Positions 2,631 through 60,900 of a stretch of DNA of 61,427 nt are shown here, piece by piece. Positions within the stretch are counted from its first letter, which is position 1; the number at the start of each line of letters is the position of its first letter. Origin of the DNA: an uncultured Verrucomicrobiota bacterium (GTDB lineage: Bacteria > Verrucomicrobiota > Verrucomicrobiia > Opitutales > Opitutaceae); NCBI GenBank assembly GCA_903906135.1, contig CAIVJE010000039.1:1-61427 (forward strand), written 5' to 3'. A program made the translations under genes and the position numbers. Under the pieces are notes generated by a model, which worked only from the letters and a program-made list of their open reading frames with translations, was not told where the DNA came from and searched no databases.

Positions 2631-4031
2631 ATGGGAAAGCAGTCACAAGTCAGTTGGGGTGGGCGTTTCTCGGCGGGTACCGCCGAGTTGATGCTGCGTT
2701 TTAGCGAATCGGTCAGTTTTGACCATCGCCTCGCCCCGTTTGATATTCAGGGAAGCCAAGCCCATGCGGCCATGTTGGCGCACGTGGGTTTGATCACGCG
2801 GCGCGAACGTGAAGCCATTCATCGTGGCTTAGAAGCCATTCTCAGTGAGGTCAAAAAGGGCAAATTTAAATGGTCCCAGCAGCTGGAAGATGTGCACATG
2901 AACATCGAACAGGCGCTGACCAAGCGCGTGCCGGCGGCCGCTAAGTTGCACACGGCGCGGAGCCGCAACGATCAAGTGGCGACGGATATGCGGCTGTATT
3001 TCAAGGCCGCCTGTGCGGAGGTCATCGCCAGCTTGCAAGCAGCGCAGCGGGCCATCCTCGCCGTAGTTGAAAAAGATGGGAGCGTTTTGCTCCCGGGCTA
3101 CACGCATTTGCAGCGGGCGCAGCCCGTGTATCTGGCGCATCATTTTTTTGCTTACCTAGAAATGTTGGAGCGGGATGCGGCGCGTTTTGCCGTGGTGGCT
3201 GACCATGCTAATTGGTGTCCGCTCGGCTCCGGCGCAATTGCGGGCACAACCTTGCCGATCGATCGGGAATATACGGCTGAATTACTGGGCTTTGTGGATG
3301 CGCAAGGTCGGCCCCGGGTGACCCAAAATAGTATGGATGCGGTCAGTGACCGAGACCTCTATATCGAATTTGCCTCAGCTTGCGCCCTCGTGGGCGTACA
3401 TTTTTCGCGACTCGCCGAGGACTTGATCTTGTGGTCGAGCCAAGAGTTTAAATTTATCGATTTGCCCGATGCTTTCTGCACGGGCTCGAGTCTGATGCCG
3501 CAGAAGAAAAATCCTGACTCGCTTGAATTGCTGCGGGGAAAATCAGCGCGGCTGCAGGGCAATTTGCACACGTTACTGACGTTGGTCAAAGGGCTCCCGT
3601 TGACCTATAATCGCGATTTGCAAGAGGACAAACCGCCAGTGTTTGATAGTCATGATCAAACGGTGCTGTGCCTGGCGGTGCTGGCCGGAACGGTGACTGG
3701 TTTGAAAATGCAGCGGGCTAAATGTGCGGCCGCGGTCGCCGACCCTGCGTTGTTGGCGACAGATTTAGCGGATTATCTCGTGCGGCGGGGCGTGGCCTTC
3801 CGCGCCGCCCATCATGCGGTTGGCGCCGTGGTCAAGTTGGCGGAAAAGCAAGGGGTCGCGCTTAATCGGCTGACTAATGCCGAGGTAAAATCGATTCATC
3901 CCGCTTTGGGTTCGGACTGGACGACCGCCTTTGATCTTTCGGCCGCAATGGCGCGGCGCAAAGGCACGGGGATGCCGGGCCCGGCGCAGATTGCGCGGCA
4001 GTTCAAACGTTGGCAGAAGCTCTTGGGGTAA
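2631..4031 (+). CDS. argH: argininosuccinate lyase
   Basis: [25 protein letters not shown]-terminus and signature [23 protein letters not shown] opens at 2619, ATG at 2631 preferred. Confidence 0.95.
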
Positions 4032-56685: not shown

Positions 56686-57204
56686 TTGCTGGAATCCGAT
56701 AATTCTAAATGGTTTACCACTGAACTCGCTCCCCATGAGCAAGCTCTGAGGGCTTATCTTCGCGGCCTGGTCAACCCCTCGGAGATTGATGATATTGTGC
56801 AAGAAACCTATGTGCGTTTGCTCCGCGCGCGCGATCGCGGCAATATTGTTTCACCTCGTGGGCTGCTTTTCGCGACTGCCCGCAATGCCGCGCGCGATCT
56901 GTTTCGTCGTCGGACTACGGCTAATACGATTTCTATAGCGGATTTTGCTGATTCGCGCGTCATCGACAACGCGCCGAATGCCGCAGAGAATGCTAGCCGT
57001 CATCAGGAGACCGACCTCCTTGCGGCTGCGATCGCGGAGCTGCCGCCTCGCTGCCGTGAAATCCTTGTTTTGCGTAAATTTGAAAATCTCTCCCATCGTG
57101 AAATCGCCAAAAAGCTGGGTATCTCTGAGCACACTGTGGAATCGCAGCTTACTAAGGGACTGCACCGCTGCGTGGAATTCTTTGCCCGTCACGGTTTGCC
57201 CTAA
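56686..57204 (+). CDS. ECF-type RNA polymerase sigma factor (FecI-like)
   Basis: EIDDIVQETYVRLLRARDRGNIVSPRGLLFATARNAARDLFRRR; CREILVLRKFENLSHREIAKKLGISEHTVESQLTKGL; start appears to be TTG. Confidence 0.88.
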   Translation: MLESDNSKWFTTELAPHEQALRAYLRGLVNPSEIDDIVQETYVRLLRARDRGNIVSPRGLLFATARNAARDLFRRRTTANTISIADFADSRVIDNAPNAAENASRHQETDLLAAAIAELPPRCREILVLRKFENLSHREIAKKLGISEHTVESQLTKGLHRCVEFFARHGLP

Positions 57205-57207
57205 GCC

Positions 57208-58233
57208 ATGAATCCGCGTTCACCTGATTTTCCTGCCGAGATACTCTGCGCAACTGCCGCGAGCTGGACAGTGCGTCGAGATCGCGGACTTTCTGCGGCA
57301 GAATCCATTGAATACGAGCTCTGGCTCGCGGCCGATCCGCGCCACGCCACTGCCATGAAGCTTTCGTCAGCTGCGTGGTCGAGCCTCGATGGTTTGCCTG
57401 AAAGCGTCGCCATACCCGTGCTGGCTGCCGCCCGCCGGCACCATTCGTTTTGGCGCCAGGCGATCATCGCAAGCACCTTGGCGGCCGCCGCCGCTCTGGC
57501 GATCGGCGTATTTGTTTGGTCGCGTCATGCGCCCGCTAATCCAGCCATTGTTTTTAGCGCGCACAGTGCGGCACGCACGGTGACGCTCGCAGACGGCTCA
57601 TTCGTCCAACTCAACATCGACAGTCAAGTGGTTGAACAGTTTACCGCCAGCGAACGTCACGTCCTACTCGTTCAGGGTGAAGCGCACTTCAGCGTCACAA
57701 AAAATCCCGCACGTCCGTTCATCGTTCGTGCTGGTGCGCTTCAGGTTCGCGCGGTCGGCACCGCTTTTAATATTAAGCTCCAATCCTCGGCTGTTGATGT
57801 CATCGTCACCGAAGGACGCGTTCAAGTTGCCTCGGCTACGGACGCGGATCACTTCGCCCCTAGCTCGGCGCTTAACGTTGGGGGGCGGGCCGTCCTGCGC
57901 AGTGATTTATCGGTTGCGACTGATTTGAGCCAGGCGCTCGTGTGCTCCCAGTTGGCGCCCACTGAGATGGTGCGTGCTTTGGCTTGGCGCGAGCCGCTCC
58001 TTCGGCTTGGTGGCGCTACGCTGGCCGAGCTGGCGCTAGAGTTTGAGCGCAGCACGGGGCGACGGCTCGTGTTTGCCGATCCGGCGATTGCCGAACTCCG
58101 TTTTGGTGGGCGCTTTCGCGCAGGCGACCTCGAAGGGTTTACGCAGGTTTTAGCCAATACCCTAGATATCGAAGTCGAGTACGCGGCGGATGGAACTATT
58201 ACTTTGAGGAAAATAAATCCACTTTCTCGATAA
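57208..58233 (+). CDS. FecR-domain anti-sigma/transmembrane signal transducer
   Basis: One TM (AIIASTLAAAAALAIGVFVW), FecR core GSFVQLNIDSQVVEQFTASERHVLLVQGEAHFSVTKNPARPFIVRAGALQVRAVGTAFNI; C-terminal STN-like segment. Confidence 0.88.
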   Translation: MNPRSPDFPAEILCATAASWTVRRDRGLSAAESIEYELWLAADPRHATAMKLSSAAWSSLDGLPESVAIPVLAAARRHHSFWRQAIIASTLAAAAALAIGVFVWSRHAPANPAIVFSAHSAARTVTLADGSFVQLNIDSQVVEQFTASERHVLLVQGEAHFSVTKNPARPFIVRAGALQVRAVGTAFNIKLQSSAVDVIVTEGRVQVASATDADHFAPSSALNVGGRAVLRSDLSVATDLSQALVCSQLAPTEMVRALAWREPLLRLGGATLAELALEFERSTGRRLVFADPAIAELRFGGRFRAGDLEGFTQVLANTLDIEVEYAADGTITLRKINPLSR

Positions 58234-58236
58234 CGG

Positions 58237-60900
58237 ATGTTACACTTTGTTGCGTCTTCCTCTCGCCGTCGACTTACGAGTCGATGGGTTACCCCCCAGA
58301 TTTCAACCCTTCTTGGCCAGCGAGTCGGCTTTCTCAGCCCGCTCCTGGTGCTCCTGCTAATTTTCTGTTTTGGTGGGCGGGCCTCGCTCCTTATTGGCGC
58401 CGAACCCGTTCGCCAGACCTTTGCCCTCGAGGCGGGGGATGCAGAAATCATGTTGGAGAAATTCTCTGAGCAAGCCGGCGTGCAAATCGTCTACATGCTT
58501 GGTGAAGTGCGCGGTGTGATAACTAATCCGGTCCAAGGTGCCTATGCGATACGTGAGGCGCTCGATCGGTTGGTTGCTCGCACGGCGCTGAGGGTCGAGG
58601 TCGAAGGGAAAACCGGAGCCTACGTGATCAAGCGTGAACGCACCCCGCAGTCACCCACGCCGCTGCCGCCAGTGTCCAGTGCCCCCCCCAACACCACCAT
58701 GAAAAAATCATCCCGCACAATCCTCGCTGTCCTAGCCTCTTGGCTCGCCGCAGCGGTTACTGCTGATGCCCAGACGGCAAACTCATCGACTACGCCGGGC
58801 TCGAGCCAAGGTGCTCAGCCGACACCGCCCAAGGAAGAAGTAATTCAACTTTCAAAATTCGAAGTTACCACCACTCAAGATAAGGGTTATGTAACCTCTA
58901 ATGCGGCTACTGGGTTTAAGACTAACCAGCAATTATTGAGCATCCCTCAAGCCGTGACAGTTGTTACGCGCGACCTCATTGAGGATATCGGATTTAGCGC
59001 TTCGTCTGATGCTTTGCAGTTTGCCGGCGTCGGCCGGTTAACCGTTGGAACGGAGGCCAGTATGTTGCGCGGTAATCGGATCGGGAATCCCATTGTTGAC
59101 GAATTTCCTAACGGCGGGCCGCCTTATCTCGATAATATCAATATTGACTCATACGAAGTCATCCGTGGGGCCGCCGCAGTTTTCTATATTAATTCTAATC
59201 TAGGTGGTGCGGTCCTCAAGACGACCCGCAAACCATTACCGTATAAAGCAACTACCCTCGGATTTAGCACTGACCAGTACGGTACTTATCGAGCGACGAT
59301 CGATACCACCGGGCCGCTTTTTTCTATTGGGGAGGGTAAATTCAGCTACCGATTTGACGGCGTCATGCGCGGAGGAGAGCAATTCTTTAAGTATCGTTCC
59401 GAAGACACGTATGGATTGTTTCCGACGTTACAGTTCAAATATAAAGATACAACCGTACGGGTTGCCATGGATTATATGAAGCTGGAGCATTATCCCCAGT
59501 CTCATTCTTTTTTAACACCTGAAGGCCAAGTCTATACTGGGGCTGGGCGGAGTGAGAATTATCAAGCGCCTGATAACTTAGAAGCTTTCACGGCCAAGCA
59601 AGTGCGACTCTCGCTCTTGCATCGTTTTTCTGAGGATTGGGAAATGAAATTCAGTGCTTCCAATAATAGATATTTGCGCGGGCCGACTGGAATCATTCTT
59701 CCGGGTGGAGGGGTTGATTGGGTTAAGGAAACCGTGACATTTAACGCCCGCCGAAACTTTCAGGATTTCAACAGCAACTACGCCATGGGTGACGTTAGCG
59801 GAAAATATGTGATCGCTGGGGTAAAAGCTCAAACGCTGGCAGGCTTTCAGTTTACGGAAGGCACCTCCGATGCCCTTTTCCAAAGTTCAACCACTTTCGG
59901 CGACGGCACGAACCGAGTCACCCGGTCAATCAGCGCTCCGAATATGGGCTCAGTTATTATTCCCAATTTAGCATCGTATCCGCAGTCAGCTAATCCCGGT
60001 GGCAGAAGCATCGGCAACGCCTTAATCGCATATGTCCAGCAGCAAGCCGACGTCATCCCTGATCGTCTGTCGTTGGTGGCGGGTTGGTCAAGTTGGGGCA
60101 ACCAGAGTACTTCGATTCCAAATCCTTCAGCGGCTCGCCCGGCGCCTTCAACCACCACGAGAAGCAGCGGTCTCCTTCATCGCTATGGTTTGGTCGGATA
60201 TATTACGAAAGAAATCTCTGTGTACGCTCTTGAGTCGACCACTCTGCAACCCAACACCTTCGGGATTATGGCTAATGGTCAGCAGCTACCAAATCAAATA
60301 GGCAATGCGCAGGAAGTCGGTATTAAGTTTGCCCTTTTTGGCGGCAAAATTTCTTCGACCTTCTCCCTCTTTGATATGGGTCTTACCAATCAGTCGACTT
60401 TTGCTGGCGTGCTGCCTGACGGTAGAAGCTATTCCAATCTCATTGGGTCCACCGTTCAAAAGGGCTGGGACGTAGACTTGGAGGTCAGGCTGCTCCCTAA
60501 CTGGCAATTAATAGCAACGGCCTTCAGTGGTGATAATAAAACTGCGACGGGAGCTCCGGTCTCAGCTAGCTATCGCTCATCTTGGAGTCTTTTCACGCGC
60601 TACGATTTTACGCCCAACACACTTAAGGGGCTCTCGATCGGCGGTGGAGCTACCACTAAGACAGGTTGGATCGTTTCTAGCGGTGGCCTTATTTTGCCCA
60701 CGCCCAAAGCATTCATCGATGTGCAAGATGGTCTCTTGGTTAATGTCTTCGCTAGTCTCAAGATTGGCCGGCATTGGACGGCGCGGATTAATATTGAAAA
60801 TCTCTTAGATGAGACTTTTCCCGCTGGTTTTCAAGCTGCCTGGTTAGTTGATCCAAGTAATCCTCGGACCACTTCGCTAGGCACAACGTATAAATTCTAA
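58237..60900 (+). CDS. TonB-dependent (siderophore-type) outer-membrane receptor with N-terminal STN domain
   Basis: STN QTFALEAGDAEIMLEKFSEQAGVQIVYM; plug LLSIPQAVTVVTRDLIEDIGFSASSDALQFAGV; beta-barrel C-terminus ARINIENLLDETFPAGF...TYKF; second signal peptide at internal Met 58699. Confidence 0.9.
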   Translation: MLHFVASSSRRRLTSRWVTPQISTLLGQRVGFLSPLLVLLLIFCFGGRASLLIGAEPVRQTFALEAGDAEIMLEKFSEQAGVQIVYMLGEVRGVITNPVQGAYAIREALDRLVARTALRVEVEGKTGAYVIKRERTPQSPTPLPPVSSAPPNTTMKKSSRTILAVLASWLAAAVTADAQTANSSTTPGSSQGAQPTPPKEEVIQLSKFEVTTTQDKGYVTSNAATGFKTNQQLLSIPQAVTVVTRDLIEDIGFSASSDALQFAGVGRLTVGTEASMLRGNRIGNPIVDEFPNGGPPYLDNINIDSYEVIRGAAAVFYINSNLGGAVLKTTRKPLPYKATTLGFSTDQYGTYRATIDTTGPLFSIGEGKFSYRFDGVMRGGEQFFKYRSEDTYGLFPTLQFKYKDTTVRVAMDYMKLEHYPQSHSFLTPEGQVYTGAGRSENYQAPDNLEAFTAKQVRLSLLHRFSEDWEMKFSASNNRYLRGPTGIILPGGGVDWVKETVTFNARRNFQDFNSNYAMGDVSGKYVIAGVKAQTLAGFQFTEGTSDALFQSSTTFGDGTNRVTRSISAPNMGSVIIPNLASYPQSANPGGRSIGNALIAYVQQQADVIPDRLSLVAGWSSWGNQSTSIPNPSAARPAPSTTTRSSGLLHRYGLVGYITKEISVYALESTTLQPNTFGIMANGQQLPNQIGNAQEVGIKFALFGGKISSTFSLFDMGLTNQSTFAGVLPDGRSYSNLIGSTVQKGWDVDLEVRLLPNWQLIATAFSGDNKTATGAPVSASYRSSWSLFTRYDFTPNTLKGLSIGGGATTKTGWIVSSGGLILPTPKAFIDVQDGLLVNVFASLKIGRHWTARINIENLLDETFPAGFQAAWLVDPSNPRTTSLGTTYKF

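Follow-up and report, generated by a model that had tools for sequence, protein, structure and literature searches.

The locus and its receptor gene

The window analysed here, the whole 61,427-nucleotide stretch from an uncultured member of the Opitutaceae, contains an operon of which the first gene (56686–57204, + strand) encodes a FecI-like ECF sigma factor (Sigma70_r2, 1e-10; Sigma70_r4_2, 8.8e-18; NCBIfam sigma70-ECF, 3e-26) and the next (57208–58233, +) a FecR-like anti-sigma factor (FecR, 3.7e-19; NCBIfam FecR, 1.2e-19; FecR_C, 0.0051, under its cut-off) with one transmembrane segment and a C-terminal STN-like domain. The third gene, which begins 3 nt past the FecR stop codon, is a long receptor open reading frame (58237–60900, +; 887 residues). 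The presence of ECF sigma factor and FecR genes upstream marks this as a cell-surface-signalling operon, in which contact of the receptor's STN domain with FecR, and control of the sigma factor, are putative.

Translation of the frame 58237–60900, which is stop-free throughout, confirms the domain order signal peptide 1 (SP1), STN domain, Pro/Thr linker, ATG 58699, signal peptide 2 (SP2), TonB box, plug and barrel. An earlier note on this DNA, which had described an export signal, an STN domain and a Pro/Thr linker followed, with no intervening stop, by a signal peptide at ATG 58699, is thus borne out by sequence, profile and fold. As judged from sequence, SP1 lies in an N-terminal extension (58237–58401, +) with predicted cleavage after residue 55, between GFLSPLLVLLLIFCFGGRASLLIGA and EP, and a maximum 19-residue Kyte-Doolittle mean of 2.27. 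The STN signalling domain (58399–58638, +; residues 55–134) is joined to a linker (58639–58698, +) whose C/A-rich DNA includes a C8 run and no stops, and the internal ATG (58699–58701, +; residue 155) opens SP2 (MKKSSRTILAVLASWLAAAVTADA; 58699–58770, +), with predicted cleavage before QT. Beyond SP2 lie a TonB-box-like VIQLSKFEV (58840–58866, +), recognised by its sequence only and kept in STN-less relatives, a plug domain (58936–59211, +; residues 234–325; PF07715, Pfam E 1.1e-5, over its cut-off) and a siderophore-receptor-like beta-barrel region (59254–60897, +) with partial NCBIfam siderophore receptor matches, the best at 2.1e-25 and under the equivalog cut-offs. The receptor does follow SP2, though not directly as had been stated: the cut and PPKEEVIQLSKFEV are separated by some 20 residues rich in Ser, Thr, Pro and Gln.

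As the Pfam match to STN is weak (E 0.016, under its cut-off), the identity of this domain was tested separately by profile and fold. A profile of the domain matches the signalling domains of PupA (2a02, 4e-12), FpvA, HasR, FoxA, PupB and FecA, and its AlphaFold model (pLDDT 92.9) superposes on those of PupB, FpvA, FoxA and FecA with TM scores of 0.77–0.88 (Foldseek); profile and predicted fold together settle the assignment. Within the STN coding region an 81-nt stretch (58509–58590) is far stabler than its synonymous shuffles (MFE -42, z -4.2), a feature atypical for the family.

The whole segment and its arrangement are kept in two 98%-identical relatives from other assemblies, and the open frame that they share rules out a stop or frameshift missed in assembly. 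Slippage on the C8 run, with an ATGA stop/start overlap, was also considered and dropped, since other relatives without the run remain in frame.

Origin of the fused gene

The receptor half of the gene has three full-length, STN-less relatives in its own genome (L002–L004, 37–43% identity), and neither FecR nor sigma factor genes adjoin these or similar genes elsewhere (L013–L015). SP2 is homologous to the genuine N-terminal signal peptide of one of the three, L003 (MNSSSRTILVIIASWLSAVVPAYAQT), with an alignment that spans all of SP2. For the STN-plus-linker half the nearest relative is L018, in which a different receptor follows (34% over the whole protein). Since the nearest receptors are complete, STN-less and without FecR or sigma neighbours, and the nearest STN domain sits on a different receptor, comparison of the sequences supports an origin by fusion of an STN module before a complete receptor gene. 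The close similarity to L018 covers 58237–58698, with differing receptors behind, and points to module swapping with its breakpoint at the internal start.

Between relatives, STN identity and receptor identity are largely uncorrelated, which indicates that pairings have often been reshuffled, and part of the conservation of the start described below could come from repeated young fusions. Amino-acid and silent changes in the window gene stand at 5/6 and 7/8 in the STN part versus 10/49 and 4/39 in the receptor, and the higher ratio in the former makes relaxation of the STN domain possible in this lineage. The STN-less nearest receptors, the different receptor behind the nearest STN domain, the lack of correlation and the relaxed ratios would all also suit a recent fusion in which the old start codon and SP2 are functionless leftovers. 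The earlier note had proposed a recent in-frame fusion; fusion as the origin stands, and recency holds for this particular pairing, but not for the architecture, which is common in the order.

Recurrence of the double-signal-peptide architecture

The survey used a profile from an eight-sequence alignment of the N-terminal part, built from double-signal-peptide genes and so trained on the architecture itself, and covered 252 genomes of the family together with samples of the phylum and order, all within Verrucomicrobiota and mostly drafts. In an even sample of the order it gave 92 matches at E below 1e-36, spread over 18 of 100 genera and four families, and none of these 92 strong matches contains an internal stop. 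Altogether 110 genes, partly related and hence not independent, were inspected (93 distinct examples and 17 added later from unselected sets). FecR lies upstream of the double-signal-peptide receptor at 79 of the 81 loci with enough flank. The architecture, which the earlier note had suggested looking for in other Opitutaceae receptors and whose lack of conservation would have told against it, is therefore common in the order, with more than 100 genes keeping it. A chance segment resembling a signal peptide is ruled out by this recurrence and by the homology of SP2 to the true signal peptide of a paralogue. We found no account of double-signal-peptide or internal-start TonB receptors in the literature.

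Several further observations were made in these genomes. One double-signal-peptide receptor (L182; G226:C1:2339625-2345849) has a frameshift just past the SP2 core, and is either a pseudogene or the product of a sequencing indel. A second class of STN receptor (L164–L194) has a single signal peptide, no SP2 and a linker that often reads DPNGxRAAP. Small stand-alone STN proteins (126–169 residues) with export signals, some of them lipoprotein-like, are encoded near some operons, either between FecR and the double-signal-peptide receptor or just 5′ of the sigma factor gene (L118:2299-2733; L144:2373-2834; L030, minus strand, offset 892; L126, L128, L142 and L162); these are possibly free STN regulators.

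Conservation of a start codon and its initiation context

At the position that opens SP2, 106 of the 110 genes carry a start codon (ATG in 96, GTG in nine, TTG in one), a clear one being missing from L124 (GTA), L125, L140 and L141. Where valine replaces methionine the codon is GTG in nine cases out of ten, versus 36% GTG in the receptor bodies (p = 7e-4, the effective number behind this test being smaller because the genes are related). To judge from the codons, then, the conserved element is a start codon, not methionine.

The nucleotides around this codon carry a signature of their own. Positions -30 to -1 are rich in C and A and poor in G across the family (A.35, C.42, G.12, T.11; G over the whole open reading frame,.275), and the avoidance of G extends to synonymous choices: CCG accounts for 14% of proline codons at -30 to -1, versus 56% at -90 to -46 and 42% in the receptor body. 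When 81-nt windows were folded against synonymous shuffles, the RNA proved open at the start codon (z = +2.00, positive in 96% of 89 genes), and the values dropped to near zero by 90 nt on either side. The result persisted with one representative per cluster (+1.66 ± 0.19, n = 31) and was replicated in 17 previously unused genes (+2.24); the linkers of 30 single-signal-peptide STN receptors gave no openness signal. For the window gene alone the value is weak (z only +0.35). The signature is accordingly a result for the family, from which a putative initiation region without a Shine-Dalgarno motif is assigned to 58669–58731 (+; -30 to +33 around ATG 58699) by homology, on the strength of the family fold z, and the gene's own case would rest on its ATG, SP2, context and homology.

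A Shine-Dalgarno motif accompanies the internal start in only four of 89 genes. Ordinary STN-less receptor starts in the same genomes have a similar C/A-rich context and a Shine-Dalgarno motif in one of 17, so that its absence is not evidence against internal initiation; some Verrucomicrobia are described as Shine-Dalgarno-scarce (PMC10783764). A scan limited to sigma-70-like promoter types found none just upstream of ATG 58699.

Divergence of the linker does not remove the start. Across 46 pairs whose receptors are related (62% identity on average) mean linker identity is 39%, versus 32% for random pairs, and the start is kept, other methionines being kept in 47%; these pairs were defined by having a start, for which the general figure is that of the 110 genes. 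L143 and L155 both retain GTG despite differing linkers. These data bear on the reading in which the old start and SP2 are relics of a recent fusion, since pairs alike in both STN and receptor parts at moderate identity (e.g. L105/L116, L135/L136 and L143/L155) retain start codon, SP2 and open context while their linkers have diverged. Moreover, SP2 has shifted to lower hydrophobicity (see below), which is not decay, and we consider the relic reading very unlikely. The earlier note's proposal of two products from alternative starts, by contrast, gains support from the conservation of the start codon and from the open, G-poor initiation region centred on it.

It is also conceivable that the gene makes mainly the long form, and that signal peptidase cuts this polyprotein at SP2 into a free STN domain, which acts on FecR, and a mature receptor no different from the short form. 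SP2 retains n-region charge and a cleavage motif, although the regular expression for the motif matched every sequence and is uninformative, and the stand-alone STN proteins beside some of these operons would fit such a scheme. A free, cleaved signalling domain has moreover been reported to bind the anti-sigma factor FoxR and to shield it, release of the domain probably being due to CtpA (PMC11637429). Cleavage of a polyprotein, however, leaves unexplained both the conservation of GTG and TTG as start codons and a nucleotide initiation signature centred on that codon. In addition, with the STN domain exported, the N side of SP2 would face outside, and signal peptidase needs the opposite orientation. 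On balance we regard processing of this kind as unlikely.

Maintenance of the frame and properties of SP2

When the STN profile alone was applied to three genomes, 27 STN-SP2-receptor genes were found in frame versus one split, where at most one third would be expected in frame without constraint. In the split case (L178; G125:C77, minus strand, about 2871–3330) the STN open reading frame terminates at a TGA lying 5 nt ahead of the ATG that begins the SP2-bearing receptor, which is in another frame. The T content of the internal start regions is.11, versus.21 at ordinary receptor starts, as would be expected if stops are avoided.

SP2 also differs from other signal peptides in hydrophobicity. 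On the Kyte-Doolittle scale, which is crude, its 19-residue mean is 1.27, versus 1.75 for SP1 and 1.57 for signal peptides from STN-less receptors encoded in the same genomes (p = 1e-4 for the latter comparison), and 8% of SP2 sequences exceed 1.6 versus 47% of those from STN-less receptors. Lower hydrophobicity is what would be expected if SP2 must traverse the translocon in a long form and yet function N-terminally in a short one.

Were the short receptor alone to matter at the protein level, its translation beginning at the internal start of either a shared mRNA or one of its own, the long form would be rare or degraded, and a hydrophobic SP2 within it could indeed hinder export. For a useless long form, however, the near absence of stops and frameshifts between STN and SP2 would be unexpected, and every one of these genes retains SP1 and STN, almost invariably with FecR upstream; such a reading strikes us as highly improbable.

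A model for one gene encoding two receptors

The explanation that we favour, and consider probable, is that one gene encodes two receptors, one a long transducer and the other a short transporter that lacks STN. An STN module with its own signal peptide, coupled to FecR, would have been fused in frame before a complete TonB-dependent receptor gene that kept both its original translation initiation region and its own signal peptide. Initiation at 58237 would then give the long form, from which SP1 is removed as the STN domain enters the periplasm, the weakly hydrophobic SP2 being carried through Sec within the linker to yield a FecA-type transducer that touches FecR. Initiation at ATG 58699, in its open, G-poor context without a Shine-Dalgarno motif, would give the short form, a receptor for transport only, in which SP2 serves as a signal peptide of the ordinary kind. 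Computation establishes the architecture and its recurrence, the conservation of the start codon, the initiation signature across the family, the maintenance of the frame and the lowered hydrophobicity of SP2. We infer that the gene yields both products, that its long form is exported intact, and that the arrangement serves to set the ratio of transducer to transporter, so that transporters could be plentiful while FecR is not swamped by STN domains.

A more far-reaching version may also be entertained, in which the architecture is an order-wide design with SP2 tuned to act at the N-terminus and yet stay silent internally and, in its strongest form, the long product is in addition split at SP2 to release a free STN regulator of FecR; this we offer as a doubtful, if intriguing, extension.

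Relation to known systems and implications

The window gene resembles the TonB-dependent transducers FecA, FpvA, PupB and FoxA in its STN fold, plug and barrel, in the TonB box between STN and plug, and in the order sigma factor, FecR, receptor. It departs from them in one respect: known transducers have one N-terminal signal peptide, one start and a soluble linker between STN and plug, whereas here the linker includes a further start codon together with an entire signal peptide. The single-signal-peptide STN receptors of the same genomes (L164, L166 and L184–L194) likewise combine STN and receptor, most of them behind FecR, but unlike the window family have no SP2, internal start or open-RNA linker signature.

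Separation of STN domain and receptor has a precedent in FoxA of Pseudomonas, which is reported to lose its signalling domain by cleavage and whose transport is unimpaired by the removal of that domain (PMC11637429). Free STN made in excess in Pseudomonas blocks signalling and shields the anti-sigma factor (PMC11637429), and these two results together make such separation biologically meaningful. In both FoxA and the window family the STN domain is parted from a receptor still competent for transport; in FoxA, however, this occurs by proteolysis after export, whilst in the window family it would apparently occur at translation initiation, some receptors never having had an STN domain. Genes with internal starts, such as SpaO (PMC13059759), ClpB (PMC6168691) and the two-polypeptide endolysins (PMC9430671), and those covered by a survey (PMC11005335), similarly have one frame, two starts and a shared C-terminal part. 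The window family has a start codon conserved at the internal position and, as a family, a nucleotide initiation signature. It differs in that both of its products would need export signals of their own, so that the internal start carries a signal peptide that would have to be silent in the long product.

Cell-surface signalling still lacks an answer to how STN reaches the anti-sigma factor at the inner membrane, and to whether it acts attached to the receptor or free (PMC11637429). In this order, evolution appears to have parted signalling and transport inside one gene, many times, providing a natural series in which the two might be uncoupled by a change of one codon. For annotation, tools that assign a single start either lose the STN domain or conceal the short receptor. 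For protein export, the genes raise the question of how weak a signal peptide needs to be for internal passage through Sec while still functioning at the N-terminus.
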